From a virus: DNA of 34,853 nt. This document shows, in pieces, positions 22,067-33,398 of the stretch (positions are counted from its first letter, which is position 1; each line of letters begins with the position of its first letter). The position numbers and the translations under genes were made by a program. The stretch spans positions 1-34,853 of the IMG/VR virus record IMGVR_UViG_3300047189_000043; one strand, 5' to 3'. The notes below the pieces were generated by a model that saw nothing but the letters and a program-made list of their open reading frames with translations, was not told where the DNA came from and did not search any database.

Positions 22067-22468
22067 ATGGATTTATCGACAATTAGCATACACATATTAG
22101 ATACCTGCGATAAAAGGCTTAAGCATTTGGCTTTAGAAGCTATAAAAGAAAGTCCCTACCAATTTATTATTACTTGTGGGTACCGAACAGAAAAAGAGCA
22201 ACAAAAATTATACGCCCAGGGGCGAACCTTACCGGGTAAGATAGTTACAAGAATAGATGGAGTTATTCAAAAATCAATGCATAATTTTTGGCCTGCCAGA
22301 GCTTTTGATATTGCCGTTATGATTGATAATAAAATTACTTGGGATACTCAATTTTATAAAATAGTTGCTGAACATATCAAAAAGGTTGCAGATAAATTAG
22401 GTATTAAAATTAATTGGGGAGGCGATTGGAGTGAATTTAAAGATTATCCACATTTCGAAATTTTGTAG
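22067..22468 (+). CDS. Endolysin, M15 family peptidase
   Basis: 133 aa. Zinc-binding residues are visible: SMHNFWPARAFD (Ser70, His72, Asp81) and PHFEI (His129, with Glu131), with GYRT at 38-41 as in VanY/L-Ala-D-Glu peptidases. Such enzymes cut peptidoglycan stem peptides. There is no signal peptide, so release would need a holin, consistent with the upstream membrane genes. It ends in TAG and is followed by a terminator. Confidence 0.85.
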   Translation: MDLSTISIHILDTCDKRLKHLALEAIKESPYQFIITCGYRTEKEQQKLYAQGRTLPGKIVTRIDGVIQKSMHNFWPARAFDIAVMIDNKITWDTQFYKIVAEHIKKVADKLGIKINWGGDWSEFKDYPHFEIL

Positions 22469-22534
22469 TTTTTTCATAATGATAGATTTAGTTGGTTAGT
22501 TGGAACCGGTTGTCGCGAGATAACCGGTTTTTTT
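22469..22534 (+). terminator. Terminator element T1 with conserved upstream box
   Basis: AACCGGTT (22504-22511) pairs with AACCGGTT (22522-22529) around TGTCGCGAGA-type loop sequence, followed by a T-run to 22534. Upstream, TGATAG and GTTGGTTAGT (22491-22500) recur at the same distance from the stop codon in the element at 30941-31010. Confidence 0.8.
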
Positions 22535-22563
22535 GCTTTAATCAAAAAGTATATTTATATTTG
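22532..22563 (+). promoter_or_regulatory. Strong promoter of the early/accessory block
   Basis: TTTG (22532-22535), 20 nt, TATATTTG (22556-22563): a full match to the Bacteroidota consensus. The -33 box falls within the terminator T-run. The -7 box overlaps the operator-like TTGTGCAACA (22561-22570). The start ATG 22584 of the regulator gene follows about 15 nt after the expected start point. Confidence 0.8.
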
Positions 22564-22583
22564 TGCAACAAAAACTAAAAAAA

Positions 22584-22760
22584 ATGAAAAAACAAAAACA
22601 TGCGGGTGGCAGGCCGAAAATTAACCTAGATGACCAGTTAACTATAAGGTGTGTGATTAAATTCTCAAAAAATCAGGCTAAAAAGATGGGCAGCCCCGAC
22701 CAAGCGCGGCGAAAAATAAGAATATGTGCGAATAATTTTATTAAGTCTGAATGTCAATAG
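22584..22760 (+). CDS. Small DNA-binding protein, likely autoregulator, 58 aa
   Basis: ATG 22584 is chosen because the in-frame GTG at 22563 is inside the -7 box. The product is basic. It starts MKKQKHAGGRPKINLDDQ, then TIRCVIKFSKNQAKKM, like the N-terminus of ribbon-helix-helix proteins of MobC or small-repressor type, where a strand precedes two helices. It is first behind a strong promoter, with TTGTSCAACA repeats overlapping that promoter and downstream. Repression of its own operon is inferred. Confidence 0.6.
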   Translation: MKKQKHAGGRPKINLDDQLTIRCVIKFSKNQAKKMGSPDQARRKIRICANNFIKSECQ

Positions 22761-22770
22761 GTTATAAAAA

Positions 22771-22832
22771 ATGTTATATAACATATAAAAATATGTTGTC
22801 CAACATATAAGATAATTAGTTATTGTGCAACA
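22771..22832. promoter_or_regulatory. Operator-like inverted repeats
   Basis: Three sites lie in 62 nt. ATGTTATATAACAT (22771-22784) is a perfect palindrome. ATATGTTGTCCAACATAT (22791-22808) has 8-bp arms around TC. TTGTGCAACA (22823-22832) is the third. The core TTGTSCAACA of the last two also occurs at 22561-22570 over the upstream promoter. The array stands just before the next transcription signals. Confidence 0.6.
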
Positions 22833-22839
22833 TAAACAA

Positions 22840-22847
22840 TATCTTTA
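22840..22847 (+). promoter_or_regulatory. Possible -7 box of a second promoter
   Basis: TATCTTTA differs from TAnnTTTG in the last base only. No clear TTTG is found ~20 nt upstream. The operator-like site at 22823-22832 would lie in the spacer. Weak on its own. Confidence 0.3.
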
Positions 22848-22870
22848 CGTATAATTATACAATATCACAC

Positions 22871-22881
22871 GTTCTTTAACA
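22871..22881 (+). promoter_or_regulatory. boxA-like antitermination element
   Basis: GTTCTTTAACA resembles the rRNA/phage boxA (E. coli rrn TGCTCTTTAACA), the RNA site bound by NusB-NusE. It lies near the 5' end of the transcript that enters a block containing several hairpins. A related GTTCTTTGAAAA occurs at 31015-31026. Function is inferred from sequence match and position. Confidence 0.4.
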
Positions 22882-22929
22882 CTTCAAAAGTTAGGCAAAA
22901 CGACAAGCGGGCCGAACAGGCAGCAAAGC

Positions 22930-22983
22930 AAGGTAAACGGGGGTAATGGGGCCTTACAATTGAGTTCGATTCTCAATACCTTC
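22930..22983 (+). ncRNA. tRNA-like acceptor/T-arm structure in the leader
   Basis: T-arm: TTGAG (22960-22964), loop TTCGATT, CTCAA (22972-22976). It is directly followed by TACCTT (22977-22982), which pairs with AAGGTA (22930-22935), the same stacking as acceptor on T-arm in tRNA. Between them GTAA (22943-22946) and TTAC (22954-22957) close a 7-nt loop TGGGGCC. There is no D-arm and no CCA. Probably a structured leader or a tRNA-derived fragment rather than a functional tRNA. Confidence 0.4.
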
Positions 22984-22987
22984 ACAA

Positions 22988-23001
22988 TCAGAATATTCTG
23001 A
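22988..23001. promoter_or_regulatory. Perfect 14-bp palindrome before the first small gene
   Basis: TCAGAATATTCTGA is self-complementary and lies 19 nt upstream of ATG 23021. It could be a protein-binding site or a small hairpin in the leader. Confidence 0.45.
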
Positions 23002-23020
23002 GATTCAAAAACTTGACAAA

Positions 23021-23311
23021 ATGAAAACAATAATTAACAACGTAGAGCATTTAAAAAATAGAAGTAACGTAACCTTAAATATTTTAGGTTACGGCAATGA
23101 ACATGTTGAAATATGCAATAAAATAACTGCTATTTGCAGAAAATACAACGCACAACAAAACATATATAGCAACACATCACATCTTATTTTTAATAAAAGG
23201 GGTGATGTTATTGGGTTTGCGAATGGTAATTCAGGCGGTACGATTACTTTTCATAGTCATAGTTGCGAACCTCAAAAAGCAGTCGAAGAACTTTTAAACG
23301 CACTAAAATAG
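23021..23311 (+). CDS. Hypothetical small protein, 96 aa
   Basis: ATG is preceded by AAAACTTGACAAA, a motif also found before the genes at 23429, 23751 and 24787. The protein has alternating strands and helices, with ITFHSHSCEP near the end and a C-terminal amphipathic helix. The family is not recognised. It is the first gene behind the boxA-like leader. Confidence 0.6.
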   Translation: MKTIINNVEHLKNRSNVTLNILGYGNEHVEICNKITAICRKYNAQQNIYSNTSHLIFNKRGDVIGFANGNSGGTITFHSHSCEPQKAVEELLNALK

Positions 23312-23428
23312 CCTGCCACTTTCCTGTCAAGTATTTGGCAGGTTTTAACCCCGGTCAATAAATTGGCTGGGGTTTTGGTAGTAGAAGACGGCCCCGACCG
23401 GTTTCGGGTAATTTAAAACTTGATAGTT
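23312..23428 (+). ncRNA. Structured leader A (three stems, start-codon-proximal complement)
   Basis: It spans the whole gap between two genes. Stem 1 is CCTGCCA (23312-23318) with TGGCAGG (23336-23342). Stem 2 is AACCCC (23347-23352) with GGGGTT (23369-23374). Stem 3 is CCCGA (23393-23397) with TCGGG (23404-23408) around loop CCGGTT. CTGTCAAGT (23324-23332), in the stem-1 loop, is complementary to ACTTGATAG (23418-23426) just before ATG 23429, with one G-U pair. Leader B has the same plan with compensatory changes, which supports a selected RNA structure. Confidence 0.65.
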
Positions 23429-23632
23429 ATGAAAACTGACAAATTTAAAGAATCGTTAAAACGATTCGAAAAACAAACCGAAGAAACAAGGCAATCTTGT
23501 CTTTGGCAAATATTTCCGCCAAAATCTAATTTTATGTTGGAATGTTGGCAAATGCAAGATGGAAGTGTTAAAATTTTTCAAATTTTTGATAATGGTCACG
23601 GTTATATGACTTATAATCAAGAATTAGTTTAA
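23429..23632 (+). CDS. Hypothetical small protein, 67 aa
   Basis: ATG 23429 (MKTDKFKESLKRFEKQ) is preferred over an in-frame TTG at 23420, which lies inside the conserved leader motif. An N-terminal charged helix precedes a strand-rich part with Trp and Cys (CLWQIFPPKS, LECWQMQDGS). Flanked on both sides by related structured leaders. Confidence 0.6.
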   Translation: MKTDKFKESLKRFEKQTEETRQSCLWQIFPPKSNFMLECWQMQDGSVKIFQIFDNGHGYMTYNQELV

Positions 23633-23750
23633 CCTGCCAAATTTCCTGTCAAGTTTCTTGGCAGATTGCCCCGGCACTCGAAAGAGGTCGGGGCTTTGGC
23701 AGTAAAAGACGGCGCGTAACCGGTTTTACGTAACTTAAAACTTGACAACC
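23633..23750 (+). ncRNA. Structured leader B (homologous to leader A)
   Basis: Stem 1 is CCTGCCA (23633-23639) with TGGCAG (23659-23664). Stem 2 is GCCCCG (23668-23673) with CGGGGC (23689-23694). Stem 3 is CGTAA (23715-23719) with TTACG (23726-23730) around the same CCGGTT loop. TGTCAAGTTT (23647-23656) is perfectly complementary to AAACTTGACA (23738-23747), three bases before ATG 23751. Stems 2 and 3 differ in sequence from leader A but keep pairing. Confidence 0.65.
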
Positions 23751-23873
23751 ATGAATGAAACAAAAGAAGAAACCTTTTTTAGTTATGACATGCTGTTAAT
23801 GTGGTCATATAAAGGTCAATTGAATCCTGATAAGGTAGATTTTACCGAGTTTGAAATAATGTTACAAAATTGA
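23751..23873 (+). CDS. Small acidic protein, 40 aa
   Basis: ATG 23751 follows leader B. The product, MNETKEETFFSYDMLLMWS onward, is 40 residues, acidic and partly hydrophobic, ending MLQN. A terminator-like hairpin lies 10 nt after the stop. The regulated leader supports it being a real gene. Confidence 0.6.
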   Translation: MNETKEETFFSYDMLLMWSYKGQLNPDKVDFTEFEIMLQN

Positions 23874-23883
23874 TGCCAAGCCA

Positions 23884-23913
23884 GGGCGGACACAAGCCCG
23901 CCCCTCCTTTTTT
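23884..23913 (+). terminator. Terminator-like hairpin
   Basis: GGGCGG (23884-23889) pairs with CCGCCC (23898-23903) around an 8-nt loop, with a T-run at 23908-23913 after CTCC. It may be a partial terminator within the operon. Confidence 0.6.
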
Positions 23914-23946
23914 GGAGCCGTTTAAATCAATTAAAAAATAGAAATA

Positions 23947-24258
23947 ATGATAAATTATAGAGGTGTAGAGATTTTTCATATTGATTGCAAAAATTTAAAC
24001 GAGCAAGATTTTATCAATAAAGTTAGAGTGATGGCAAAATTGGCAAATGGTCATAAAGATAGTAGTTTGTTAGGTTTAGCAGATTACAATGGGGTAAATC
24101 TAACTGATAAAATTAAAGAATTTTTAGATTCTGCTGAGATAGCGGAAAGTTTGAAAAAATATAAGAAATTTGCCATCATCGGTTTATCTACTCTTCAACG
24201 AATAGCGTTAAAATTTTTCAATTATGCTCTCAAATTATTGCGTATGACACGGTGTTAG
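23947..24258 (+). CDS. STAS/SpoIIAA-like protein with probable frameshift near the C-terminus
   Basis: 103 aa as read. MINYRGVEIFHIDCKNL, LLGLADYNGV and KKFAIIGLSTLQRIALK follow the pattern of small STAS-like proteins (YKGKEI..D; K.kAVVGltGl.ki). After codon 88 the frame ends in an unlike tail (LRMTRC). Shifting -1 at AAAATTTTT (24210-24218) gives QLCSQIIAYDTVLVP, ending at TAG 24285-24287, which restores the expected 'iiayDT' strand. Either a recent frameshift, an assembly error or slippage. Role unknown. Confidence 0.5.
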   Translation: MINYRGVEIFHIDCKNLNEQDFINKVRVMAKLANGHKDSSLLGLADYNGVNLTDKIKEFLDSAEIAESLKKYKKFAIIGLSTLQRIALKFFNYALKLLRMTRC

Positions 24259-24339
24259 TGCCAGTTATTTATAATGAAAATAAATAGCAAATATATTGAA
24301 AATAATTGCCGAATCAAATAACAATTAAAACATAAAACG

Positions 24340-24543
24340 ATGAAAACTTACAAAAACGTAACCGGAATTAACAGAGAAGATTTAAGCGCAAGTGCATTAT
24401 TAGAAGCTGTAAAAGAACAATTAGAACAATCTTACCCAAATTTAGGTGGCGAAAGTTTAACAATAGTAGCCGATTTAATGGTAAGATACGATGAAGATGT
24501 AACTGAATCGAATGGTCAATTTTCTTGTTATTCTGCCGAATAA
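24340..24543 (+). CDS. Hypothetical small protein, 67 aa
   Basis: ATG 24340 (MKTYKNVTGINREDLSA). The product is acidic and helical, with an Asp/Glu-rich end and one Cys. Its TAA overlaps the next ATG (TAATG). The family is not recognised. Confidence 0.6.
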   Translation: MKTYKNVTGINREDLSASALLEAVKEQLEQSYPNLGGESLTIVADLMVRYDEDVTESNGQFSCYSAE

Positions 24544-24707
24544 TGAAAAGACAAACCATAATAGTAATAATTACCCCGGGTAAAGAACCAGAGACCTGGG
24601 GTAATTTTAAAAAGGCTTGCGAGGCAAAGGGATGGCATAATATTCGCGACAAAGAAATTATGGCATTTGAAAGTGAAATCGAAGCAAAAGAATGGTTAAT
24701 TTCATAA
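24543..24707 (+). CDS. Hypothetical small protein, 54 aa
   Basis: ATG 24543 overlaps the previous stop; an upstream in-frame TTG (24525) would give a longer but less likely form. MKRQTIIVIITPGKEPETW is followed by FKKACEAKGWHNIRDKEI and ends EAKEWLIS: a strand-helix-strand-helix fold of ~54 residues. The family is not recognised. Confidence 0.6.
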   Translation: MKRQTIIVIITPGKEPETWGNFKKACEAKGWHNIRDKEIMAFESEIEAKEWLIS

Positions 24708-24786
24708 AGTTTTAAAGGTCTAAAGTCCTTGAAAATTCTGGGATAGCAGGGCATCTGCCCTGTAAACAAACTAAAACTTGACAAAA
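24708..24786 (+). promoter_or_regulatory. Leader C: hairpin plus shared ACTTGACA motif
   Basis: CAGGGCA (24747-24753) pairs with TGCCCTG (24756-24762) over a 2-nt centre, followed by TAAACAAACTAAAACTTGACA before ATG 24787. The last part matches the end of leaders A and B and of the 23021 leader. The complementary TGTCAAGT segment of A and B is absent. Confidence 0.45.
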
Positions 24787-24948
24787 ATGAAAGCAAATTA
24801 CACAATTAAACTTCTTGAAAATGAAATTAATATCATTCAAAAATGTTTGAATGAATGGCCTAAAAATGAATATTTAGAAGCGTTTAAAGAACGTGATAAG
24901 AGATTGAATGAATTGAAAAAATGTAAAGAAATTATTGAAAATTATTAA
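24787..24948 (+). CDS. Small helical protein, 53 aa
   Basis: ATG 24787, MKANYTIKLLENEINIIQK onward. Entirely charged helix/coiled coil with two Cys, ending IIENY. It follows leader C. No family. Confidence 0.55.
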   Translation: MKANYTIKLLENEINIIQKCLNEWPKNEYLEAFKERDKRLNELKKCKEIIENY

Positions 24949-24964
24949 TTTAAAATTTGATATT

Positions 24965-25240
24965 ATGAAAAAGATTATGATTTTAGCATTGTGCATATTA
25001 TTATATGCATGTGCAATTAAACCTGTTTGTCATCTTGATAACCAGGTGGTAAAAATTACCGGTTATCACAAATCAACTAAAACAGTTGAGTGTGAAAACT
25101 TATCAAGGACTTGTTTCGCCTCTTTTACCTGCAATCAAAAAGTACAAATCGGTGATACGGTAAAAGTTGAGGTAGTAAATTACGGTTCGGTGGCAGGCAA
25201 TAGGTTACCAGTATGTACTATAAAAAAATTAACTAAATAA
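24965..25240 (+). CDS. Small lipoprotein, 91 aa
   Basis: ATG 24965 begins MKKIMILALCILLYAC, a lipobox (LLYAC) with Cys16 as lipidation site. The upstream TTG at 24935 would hide it. The mature part is beta-type with further Cys residues (VECENLSRTC, FTCNQKVQIGDTVKVEV), like a small OB-like domain. Candidates are superinfection exclusion or an outer-membrane spanin-like function; nothing decides. Confidence 0.6.
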   Translation: MKKIMILALCILLYACAIKPVCHLDNQVVKITGYHKSTKTVECENLSRTCFASFTCNQKVQIGDTVKVEVVNYGSVAGNRLPVCTIKKLTK

Positions 25241-25248
25241 AAAAAATC

Positions 25249-25443
25249 ATGAATGCTTACGAAAAGGCCCAGGCTAAAAAAGATGAAATAAAATATAATG
25301 CTTTGATTGATAAGTACTCAATGTATATTGAGTACTTAGATAATGCATTAAAAGTTGCTAATCAAAATATTAGTAGTGCCGAAAAAATATTAAGTGATTT
25401 AAAAAGTTCAATAAATATGTTGTCTAACATAGAAAAAAATTAG
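25249..25443 (+). CDS. Small coiled-coil protein, 64 aa
   Basis: ATG 25249. Highly helical and charged, with a heptad-like pattern throughout (IDKYSMYIEYLDNALKVANQ), no Cys or Trp. It resembles the next small protein in character, and they may pair. Function unknown. Confidence 0.55.
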   Translation: MNAYEKAQAKKDEIKYNALIDKYSMYIEYLDNALKVANQNISSAEKILSDLKSSINMLSNIEKN

Positions 25444-30232: not shown

Positions 30233-30940
30233 ATGGAAGAACTAAAAGTAACTGTTGAAAGCGGAGTGAAAGAACTCGAAATTAGAACCGGCGATGCTGG
30301 AAGGATAATCGAATCCAAAGCAGTTAATATTGTTGGAATAATCAATACGCCTTTGGAATATTTAAAAGTTAGAAAACAGCATATTGATTTTGCAATTGCC
30401 AATATTCAAGTTCATCGTGAAGGATTATCTATAATTATTTCTTTGGATGAAAATTTGGATATTGAAAGTAAAATTTCTGGAATATTGTCTTTAACTCAAG
30501 AGTTTAAAAACTTTGGAATTAATTCCGGTAAAGGGTGGGTTCCGAGGGAACTTGCTGAATTTATTAAAATGAACCGGGTATGTTTTGAAAGTAAGGATAC
30601 AGCAAATAAACTTTGTGCCATTCTTTCTGATGTAAAAATTAGAATTGATAAAGTAGTAGAAGATCAAAAAGGGCAACAAGGAAAGATAAGGCAACTCAAA
30701 GAACAAACCTTGAAAGAATGTAATATACCTGAAAACTTAACCCTTGAAATGCCAATTTTTAAAGGTGCAAAAAAATCAACATTCCTGGTTGAAATTTGGA
30801 TTAACCCTGATGATTTATCCGTAAAACTTATTTCGCCTGATGCTGCAGATATTATTCGGCAGGTACGAGATGAGGAAATAGATTCAGTAATTACTCAGAT
30901 TCGTGAAATTTGCCCAGAATTGGCAATATTGGAAATTTAG
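30233..30940 (+). CDS. Hypothetical phage protein, 235 aa
   Basis: Begins MEELKVTVESGVKELEIRTG. An alpha/beta N-terminal part (~1-100) precedes a charged helix (~140-165) and a C-terminal beta/helix part. No motif that I recognise. Last gene of the operon: element T2 follows its stop at the same spacing as T1 after the endolysin. Confidence 0.6.
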   Translation: MEELKVTVESGVKELEIRTGDAGRIIESKAVNIVGIINTPLEYLKVRKQHIDFAIANIQVHREGLSIIISLDENLDIESKISGILSLTQEFKNFGINSGKGWVPRELAEFIKMNRVCFESKDTANKLCAILSDVKIRIDKVVEDQKGQQGKIRQLKEQTLKECNIPENLTLEMPIFKGAKKSTFLVEIWINPDDLSVKLISPDAADIIRQVRDEEIDSVITQIREICPELAILEI

Positions 30941-31010
30941 GTTTCATTGATAGTTTGGATTTGTTGGTTAGTGTAATTAACCGGTCAACCGTGAGGCGTG
31001 CCGGTTATTT
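30941..31010 (+). terminator. Terminator-like element T2
   Basis: TAACCGG (30978-30984) pairs with CCGGTTA (31001-31007), followed by a poor T-run. The upstream TGATAG and GTTGGTTAGT (30963-30972) match element T1, and GTTGGTTAGT starts 23 nt after the stop codon in both. Termination here may be partial, since the boxA-like site follows at once. Confidence 0.55.
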
Positions 31011-31014
31011 TAAA

Positions 31015-31026
31015 GTTCTTTGAAAA
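31015..31026 (+). promoter_or_regulatory. boxA-like element
   Basis: GTTCTTTGAAAA resembles boxA and the element at 22871-22881. Position directly after the hairpin of T2 suits antitermination or readthrough into the replication genes. Confidence 0.35.
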
Positions 31027-31366
31027 TATAAGTAGTTTATAAGTGTCCGGATGAGCATTTGATTTTGGGCTTATTAAGACTTTGGAATCATGGACTAAAG
31101 TTGAAATTTGTATGGTAAATTAAATGAAAATTAACGGAAACGCGCGGAATATTAGAAATTATCATATCTGATATAGAAATATTGACTATTGAAAGAAATT
31201 GATCGCGTTTAACACGTACACTATTGTCTTTTAAGTTTGAAGTAGAGCTCCGAAATGAGGCGAGCTGTTAAAAAAAACTATCGTTTGCAGTAGACGTATT
31301 GCGAAATGCAAAACAGAAGGTTCGAATCCTTTCTTATAAACTATTTTTTAATTTAAATTATTAATT
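31027..31366 (+). other. 340-nt non-coding stretch with structured RNA signals
   Basis: No convincing ORF. It contains a palindrome ATATCTGATAT at ~31168-31178, a promoter candidate at 31208-31239, stem AGCTC/GAGCT (31246-31250/31262-31266), stem TTGC/GCAA (31299-31302/31308-31311), and a T-arm GAAGG-TTCGAAT-CCTTT (31316-31332). TTTATAAG (31036-31043) is complementary to CTTATAAA (31333-31340), directly after the T-arm; it could close a large domain. A tRNA/tmRNA-like fold was considered but no tag ORF or D-arm is convincing. Confidence 0.45.
31208..31239 (+). promoter_or_regulatory. Promoter candidate for the replication-side genes
   Basis: TTTA (31208-31211), 20 nt, TAAGTTTG (31232-31239): correct -7 box and a one-base-off -33 box with ideal spacing. 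The expected start lies at the beginning of the structured tRNA-like leader. Confidence 0.55.
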
Positions 31367-32437: not shown

Positions 32438-32833
32438 ATGGCTTTGAGTTACGGTGAACAACTTCACGATTCAAGATGGTTAAAAAAATGTGCAGAAATA
32501 AAGGAACGTGATGATTATAAATGTAGGATATGTAAGGATCATGAACACTACTTGGACGTTCACCATATTTGTTATTTTCCTGATATTTTACTATGGGAGT
32601 ATGATAATGAATTGTTAATTACTATTTGTCGAAAACATCATAAAATATTAAATTTTGAACTTCCTAAATTAGCCGGGTTGATTGCATTTCGAATATTGAC
32701 AAATGATATTGATCCGATGAATATTGAATGGTTTCTTAATTTATTGAAAGATTTAGATAAAAATATATATGGCCAGAATCAGAACGATAAAACCGGAATT
32801 TTGGAGTCATCCGATTTTAGCAAAACAAGATGA
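32438..32833 (+). CDS. HNH-like endonuclease
   Basis: 131 aa from ATG 32438. YKCRICKDH (CxxC), then LDVHHICYF with the catalytic His pair region, and ITICRKHHKIL as the closing CxxH/H. This is the HNH zinc-binding pattern with 'V(H)H...W.yDN.L.t.C..CH'-like order. The C-terminus is a helical extension. Overlaps the next gene by 65 nt. It could be a free-standing homing nuclease or a helper of replication or packaging; the location beside the origin favours the former two. Confidence 0.75.
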   Translation: MALSYGEQLHDSRWLKKCAEIKERDDYKCRICKDHEHYLDVHHICYFPDILLWEYDNELLITICRKHHKILNFELPKLAGLIAFRILTNDIDPMNIEWFLNLLKDLDKNIYGQNQNDKTGILESSDFSKTR

Positions 32834-33398
32834 TGCCACTAAATTACTTGCAATAGCATTATTAAATTTTGCTGATGATGAGGGTTATTTTCACGCAGAA
32901 CCTAATGTTGTTAGAGGGTTTTGCAGACCATTCGACGATAACTCGACGATAACTCGACGATGCCTCGATAATCTTTTGAAAATAGGGTATATTTTTATAT
33001 GTGAAAATGAATTTTATGGTTCAATTGGATTGATAAAAACATTTTCAGAACATCAACGGATTGATAGGCCAAGTACTTCAAGATTAAAAGATTATTATTC
33101 GACGAACACTCGACGAACACTCGACGAACACTCGACGGAGGAAGGGAAAGGAAGGGAAAGGAAAGGAAGGGAAAGAAATAGTAAATTTATACCACCAATT
33201 TTAGAAGAAGTAAAACAATACTTCAAGGAAAAAGGATATAAAGAAACAGCAGCTATTAAAATGTTTGAATCTTATTCCGTTGCAAATTGGATAGATTCAA
33301 AAGGATCACCGGTAAAAAATTGGAAACAAAAAGCCATAAATGTTTGGTTTACAGATCAAAATAAAATTAATGGTCAATTAACTATTTTAGCCAGATGA
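32769..33398 (+). CDS. Replisome organiser-like replication protein
   Basis: 209 aa. MARIRTIKPEFWSHPIL and LLAIALLNFADDEGYFHAEPN are typical of phage DnaD-like/replisome-organiser N-terminal winged-helix domains. A charged middle (~110-140) is encoded by the iterons and a polypurine tract. The C-terminal ~60 residues (EEVKQYFKEKGYKETAAIKMFESY, then NWKQKAINVWF) resemble the DnaD tail. It should bind the origin and load the helicase encoded next (ATGA overlap). Confidence 0.75.
   Translation: MARIRTIKPEFWSHPILAKQDDATKLLAIALLNFADDEGYFHAEPNVVRGFCRPFDDNSTITRRCLDNLLKIGYIFICENEFYGSIGLIKTFSEHQRIDRPSTSRLKDYYSTNTRRTLDEHSTEEGKGRERKGRERNSKFIPPILEEVKQYFKEKGYKETAAIKMFESYSVANWIDSKGSPVKNWKQKAINVWFTDQNKINGQLTILAR
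32932..33138 (+). repeat. 11-bp iterons, probable replication origin
   Basis: Cluster 1: TCGACGATAAC at 32932-32942 and 32943-32953, TCGACGATGCC at 32954-32964, then TCGATAATC. Cluster 2: TCGACGAACAC at 33099-33109, 33110-33120 and 33121-33131, then TCGACGG to 33138. A G/A-only tract follows (to ~33178). The 11-bp unit is not a multiple of three, so copies are read in shifting frames; conservation is at DNA level. The setting is like lambda O, where the origin lies inside the initiator gene. Confidence 0.75.

Follow-up and report, generated by a model that had tools for sequence, protein, structure and literature searches.

Two homologous structured leader RNAs before tiny genes of a Bacteroidota phage

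Why would a phage keep the same folded RNA in front of more than one of its tiny genes, and what could such an RNA do there? We take up this question at one locus of a phage that infects Bacteroidota, IMG/VR virus record IMGVR_UViG_3300047189_000043, the whole of which (34,853 bases) we call the window. Two gaps between open reading frames (ORFs), spaced 321 nt apart in this one genome, each begin with the base directly after an upstream stop codon and end with the base that abuts the next ATG. We refer to them as leaders, and the layout around them is as follows.

22533..22563, plus strand: match to a Bacteroidota-type promoter (TTG, spacer, TAnnTTTG), upstream of the whole operon
23312..23428, plus strand: leader 1, between a 96-aa ORF (stop TAG 23309-23311) and a 67-aa ORF (ATG 23429); from homology, minimum free energy (MFE) z-score and pair counts
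23429..23632, plus strand: 67-aa ORF, directly 3' of leader 1, of no confident family
23633..23750, plus strand: leader 2, intercistronic, between a stop TAA (23630-23632) and the 40-aa ORF that it precedes (ATG 23751); from MFE z-score, homology and pair counts
23751..23873, plus strand: 40-aa ORF, directly 3' of leader 2
23884..23913, plus strand: likely intrinsic terminator (GGGCGG..CCGCCC, then CTCCTTTTTT) that closes the three-gene operon; from a terminator scan

A promoter scan of positions 22400-25300 gave a Bacteroidota-type match only at 22533-22563 and none between the leaders, and a protein search returned no relatives of the 67-aa ORF. Because the sole promoter match lies upstream of the operon and the terminator-like site at 23884 follows the 40-aa ORF, the leaders are probably intercistronic elements on one message. 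The reading that we favor, with our own judgment evenly balanced on it, is that they are cis-acting RNAs that determine how the message folds around each tiny gene's start. Bacteroidota do not use SD sequences; their translation is lowered by structure in the region from about -20 to +20 and is tuned as well by particular nucleotides, A at -3 among them (PMC6847099). Since translation in these bacteria depends on start-region structure and not on SD pairing (PMC6847099), the leaders are plausible as effective regulators.

Other parts of the window also drew our attention. The leader of the operon's first gene (22870-23000, plus strand) has a boxA-like GTTCTTTAACA as well as a T-arm like that of a tRNA (TTGAGTTCGATTCTCAA), closed by AAGGTA/TACCTT; neither ARAGORN nor Rfam finds a tRNA in it. 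An ORF-free stretch of ~430 nt at 30940-31366, plus strand, which contains both a boxA-like GTTCTTTGAAAA and, once more, a T-arm-like AGAAGGTTCGAATCCTTTCT, is possibly a tRNA-like leader of the same kind. After the endolysin gene, 22465-22537 (plus strand) bears a sub-threshold likeness to FopS, a Bacteroidetes sRNA family (35.2 bits, cut-off 56, E 0.007), and ends in a strong terminator, and a short tandem repeat (CGACGAACACT) lies at 33100-33140, plus strand, within the ORF at 32769-33398.

Are the two leaders really one RNA? It had been predicted from the letters that the gaps at 23312-23428 and 23633-23750 align over their full length, and this proves right, coordinates included: the leaders can be aligned end to end, and a covariance model that had leader 2 as its sole input, run over the whole window, gives leader 1 a score of 72.2 bits (E 2e-16), with every remaining hit at 14.3 bits or less. 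Both fold more stably than their shuffles (MFE z -3.08 for leader 1 and -3.75 for leader 2). Stem 2 is AACCCC/GGGGTT in leader 1 and GCCCCG/CGGGGC in leader 2, and stem 3 is CCCGA/TCGGG against CGTAA/TTACG around a common loop, CCGGTT, all as originally read. In the model-fitted alignment, 98.4% of the paired cells of the two leaders can pair, and both sides have changed in 6 of the 32 pairs, all six within stems 2 and 3 of these two aligned copies; when partners are slid by one to three columns as a control, pairing drops to 29-51%. The further claim that three stems are kept while their sequence changes thus stands for stems 2 and 3 but not for stem 1, which is nearly invariant between the leaders and contributes no covariation; the CTGTCAA strand is likewise constant. 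From the 72.2-bit match, the pair counts and the z-scores, we conclude that the leaders are homologous and structured. Only three instances are firm, counting the homologue described below, and two of them are from one genome and probably duplicates of each other, which makes a small sample for covariation. An RNAalifold consensus on a MAFFT alignment was discarded, stem 2 being misaligned in it.

What shape, then, do these RNAs take? The best predicted fold of both is a three-way junction followed by stem 3 and by an A-rich tail that carries the ATG. Of the junction helices, P1 (CUGCCA/UGGYAG) is on the outside, P2 (CUGUCAA/UUGGCAG) is a hairpin, and P3 is stem 2; the strands of P1 are CUGCCA/UGGUAG in leader 1 and CUGCCAAA/UUUGGCAG in leader 2.

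23313..23318, plus strand: leader 1, 5' strand of P1 (strand a), CTGCCA; partner TGGTAG at 23376-23381, alternative partner TGGCAG of P2 (MFE, energies)
23323..23342, plus strand: leader 1, P2 hairpin, CCTGTCAA-GTAT-TTGGCAGG
23347..23374, plus strand: leader 1, P3 (stem 2), AACCCCGGTCAA/TTGGCTGGGGTT (MFE, pair counts)
23393..23408, plus strand: leader 1, stem 3 hairpin, CCCGA-CCGGTT-TCGGG (MFE, pair counts)
23409..23428, plus strand: leader 1, pre-start tail, TAATTTAAAACTTGATAGTT
23634..23702, plus strand: leader 2, three-way junction; P1 CTGCCAAA/TTTGGCAG, P2 CTGTCAAG-TTT-CTTGGCAG, P3 GCCCCGGC..GTCGGGGC
23715..23730, plus strand: leader 2, stem 3 hairpin, CGTAA-CCGGTT-TTACG (MFE, pair counts)
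23731..23750, plus strand: leader 2, pre-start tail, TAACTTAAAACTTGACAACC, which includes AAACTTGACA, complementary to TGTCAAGTTT at 23647-23656

The original prediction had drawn stem 1 as a simple stem, CCTGCCA/TGGCAGG, and here the junction replaces it: both CTGCCA and CTGTCAA have either copy of TTGGCAG as a possible partner (and CTGTCAA has the tail as well), so CCTGCCA/TGGCAGG is an alternative pairing and not part of the best predicted fold. Evaluated alone, the junction comes to -38.4 kcal/mol in leader 1 and -43.2 kcal/mol in leader 2, as against -35.2 and -33.1 kcal/mol for the nested part of the alternative fold, to which a loop-tail helix adds ~9-10 kcal/mol before any pseudoknot penalty is counted. 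By these energies, the junction is the predicted favorite in leader 2, and the two forms are predicted to be close in leader 1. Such values are only a guide, because the predicted fold of leader 1 changes when 100 nt of native flank are added.

Is the leader a peculiarity of one phage? Four relatives were found through a search with the major capsid protein, and one of them, G798 (IMGVR_UViG_3300042731_006219, 40,208 bases), with a capsid protein 66% identical and a structural module at ~31-70% protein identity, holds a third copy. This homologue, E1 (L210 11946-12039, minus strand), scores 28.6 bits with model R2 (E 3e-5 in 52 kb), the runner-up in the same 20 kb reaching 11.2 bits. It occupies a 93-nt gap, CTATGCTAGTTCCTGCTACATCTGCAGGACACTAACCCCAACTGGTTTTGACCTTCGGGGTTTTGGCAGTAGAAAACAATAAAACTAGAAATC-ATG, that separates two small ORFs in the accessory region of G798; its own MFE structure (z -2.53) repeats the three-way junction but has no stem 3, and it retains ACCCC..GGGGTTTTGGCAGTAGAAAAC. 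An independent homologue that agrees with the leaders in both fold and context, E1 counts for us as a member of the candidate motif. The preceding gap in its operon, E2 (L210 12361-12442, minus strand, CCGGGGG..CTCCCGGTTTTAGTAGTAGA), has the P3-UUUURGYAGUAGA block without P1 or P2 and gives no model hit; it is a possible degenerate fourth copy. G798 also has near-identical promoter/operator blocks (L210 14450-14590 and 12716-12815, minus strand; GACAATATTTTGTC repeats, TTG..TATCTTTA) before two small-gene operons, the second of which bears E2 and E1.

The ORFs behind leader 1, leader 2 and E1 are mutually unrelated (blastp, no significant similarity among six proteins), and because the copies precede genes without homology to each other, what is conserved is the RNA and not the downstream gene. 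The idea of a transferable cis cassette for small phage genes finds support here, with the same leader before non-homologous genes and the RNA core kept. The covariance-model search that had been suggested as a check yielded this one independent homologue (28.6 bits) but none in the other viral or host sequences searched. The remaining capsid relatives hold no further copy; scans of viral contigs for patterns of leader pieces returned nothing or chance matches; blastn against phages and plasmids returned only terminator-like hairpins and AT-rich chance matches; among relatives of the phrog_3657 protein, 61 of them viral and 21 from genomes, models R1 and R2 had no hit; and models R2 and R3 on Bacteroidota genomes, in ~1,900 overlapping draws, gave three 29-bit hits, judged to be chance, and no accepted copy. 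The genome negatives are weak, because the first pass of that same search missed E1, which only a full cmsearch recovered.

How would such a leader act? On the cis-acting reading, the upstream cistron would end within a single long transcript and the next ~70 nt would fold into the P1-P2-P3 junction, followed in the leader-bearing phage by the extra stem 3 hairpin and then by the A-rich tail with the start codon. By default, the P2 hairpin would tie up the CTGTCAA strand, and leader 2 would have a free start region; in an alternative state, CTGTCAA would pair with the pre-ATG sequence and initiation would be lower. The job of the leader would be to control, and to keep separate, the translation of each downstream tiny gene on a polycistronic message, non-homologous genes being pluggable behind one shared leader, and it may have a further role in mRNA stability or 5' processing. 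We infer both the action in cis on translation and the use of the alternative pairing.

That alternative pairing is the heart of a stronger proposal, a bistable translational switch, in which CTGTCAAGT, in the loop of CCTGCCA/TGGCAGG, masks the 9-10 nt before the ATG until an unspecified signal moves the RNA to the open three-way junction. The complement itself is present in both leaders, with 10 Watson-Crick pairs in leader 2 and 9 pairs, including one G-U, in leader 1, where CTGTCAAGT, the 5' strand of P2, is complementary to ACTTGATAG. It clearly beats shuffles only in leader 2, where the longest Watson-Crick complement between the upstream part and the tail is 10 nt (p about 0.003). In leader 1, E1 and E2, the longest is 6-7 nt (p 0.16-0.24), and in leader 1 it belongs to another segment, GTTTTAA (p about 0.2); in the leader of a nearby twister ribozyme it is 8 nt (p 0.0125). 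The combined p of 0.0008 covers five leaders including the twister's, with leaders 1 and 2 being related and the twister stem belonging to a known ribozyme fold. The switch also has its alternative pairings built in, the strands being duplicated (two CUGYCA-like, two UUGGCAG), and rough energy sums place the pseudoknotted form near the junction while the pseudoknot penalty is excluded.

Once that penalty is counted, however, the junction is favored. The complement of leader 1 is no better than chance, and the complementary strand is without covariation. The prediction had taken loss of the complement in a homologue as evidence against masking, and the single homologue goes part of the way, no more than 6 nt being left in E1 (CTAGTT/AACTAG, p 0.24). 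The default fold has TTGGCAG as the partner of the complementary segment and an open start region in leader 2; in leader 1 the tail is partly paired. The pre-ATG sequence occurs, moreover, without this leader: AAACTTGACA stands upstream of genes at 23021 and 24787 that have a different upstream region, with a close variant before the gene at 24965, and is by all appearances a recurrent pre-start sequence of the leader-bearing phage. Because it precedes two genes that have no such leader, it did not evolve solely for loop pairing. Start-site masking is possible on this evidence, and a full bistable switch seems to us unlikely. The suggestion that the leaders kiss through ACCGGT finds no support, E1 having no stem 3.

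Translational riboswitches and other start-masking leaders, such as SAM-II and preQ1-II, carry in a loop a strand that complements the site of ribosome entry. The leaders resemble them in such a strand and in a possible pseudoknot topology, but no ligand-binding consensus is recognized in the leaders, and the homologue shows weak masking or none. Nor did the comparison with Rfam that had been proposed find them a family: in Rfam 15 nothing reaches its gathering cut-off, DsrA being best at 26.1 bits against 60. One other candidate was c4-2 RNA (RF02944), which three phages linked by their phrog_3657 protein carry just 5' of a gene start (L089 9012-9092, L097 11099-11182, L108 10263-10346). Like the leaders, it is a compact structured RNA near a gene start in Bacteroidota phages, but with no sequence or model similarity and with other genes beside it, we rejected it as a relative.

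Another parallel lies 1 kb downstream of the leaders.

24708..24778, plus strand: type-P3 twister ribozyme (RF03154), Rfam 48.5 bits (cut-off 39.9), in the equivalent position before a small ORF at 24787

Its outer, closing stem is AAGUUUUA/UAAAACUU, and UAAAACUU is the pre-start sequence shared with the leaders. Could the leaders, then, be processing elements, self-cleaving RNAs or RNase III-type sites that give each tiny gene its own 5' end? We find this distinctly doubtful. The ribozyme and the leaders share a phage, a place directly before a small ORF, a closing helix that draws on UAAAACUU, and a hairpin followed by UAA before the tail (in the leaders the U-A-A follows stem 3, in the twister the P1 hairpin), and P3 of leader 1 is a 12-pair helix. 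The leader alone, however, matches no Rfam ribozyme family even at E 10, and no catalytic core is recognized, with hammerhead, HDV-like and pistol cores not seen by eye in either leader; E1 lacks both stem 3 and the UAA after it. Twister covariance models of any type match only 24708-24778, the leaders giving nothing at E 10; the leaders are built on a three-way junction and show no P4/L4 consensus. Because the leaders match no twister model, the resemblance is a parallel and not membership. In the ribozyme itself, cleavage at U-A by the twister rule would fall ~24 nt before the ATG at 24787, removing the upstream closing strand.

P3 might instead be the hairpin of a conditional terminator, or attenuator, with P1 capturing the bases just 3' of it and so setting read-through, which is to our minds more doubtful still. 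P3 alone matches intergenic terminator-like hairpins of Vibrio and Pseudomonas phages (e.g., AACCCCAGTCATTAATTTGGCTGGGGTTTT), and in all copies it is followed by 3-4 U, with which P1 of leader 2 pairs. That U run is just 3-4 nt, though, before GG, and in contrast to the phage terminators, P3 sits within a junction, and a gene begins 50-60 nt downstream of it. Neither leader passes the scan (a GC-rich hairpin, then at once a U-rich tract of at least 5 T in 8) that finds sites at 22502 and at 23884, the operon's likely terminator.

Might there be no function at all, only GC-rich spacer that was duplicated recently and has kept the look of a structure? A pair of copies within a single genome, 321 nt from each other, and few homologues would suit that view, but the compensatory changes in stems 2 and 3 and the independent copy with the same junction in G798 make it improbable. 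A small trans-acting RNA, released or encoded by the gaps, is the most improbable account, the compact GC-rich fold and a weak likeness of two hairpins to enterobacterial sRNAs being outweighed by the lack of an own promoter match, by gap ends that both abut coding sequence, and by the likeness being one of generic hairpins far under gathering scores.

The cis-acting leader stays our favored reading, and what kind of thing would it be? As we see it, the leaders are a candidate new motif of a known kind, the structured phage leader RNA, in three firm copies. A bolder reading, which we very much doubt, would make it a new class of regulatory RNA in Bacteroidota phages: a mobile three-way-junction leader whose duplicated pairing strands toggle the start codon of any tiny accessory gene behind it, alongside a twister that closes with that very pre-start sequence, two RNA devices reading one start-region sequence. 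What stands out most at the locus is that leader and twister apparently have a pre-start sequence in common. To our knowledge, few phage RNA leaders have been described in Bacteroidota. If the leader is plain spacer structure, even then it would be a motif newly noted, and one with an independent homologue. Start-region structure is a main lever for tuning translation in these bacteria (PMC6847099), and if the cis-acting reading is true, leader and twister would together be a concrete system by which RNA controls phage accessory genes, and the leader would be a candidate expression-control part for Bacteroides.
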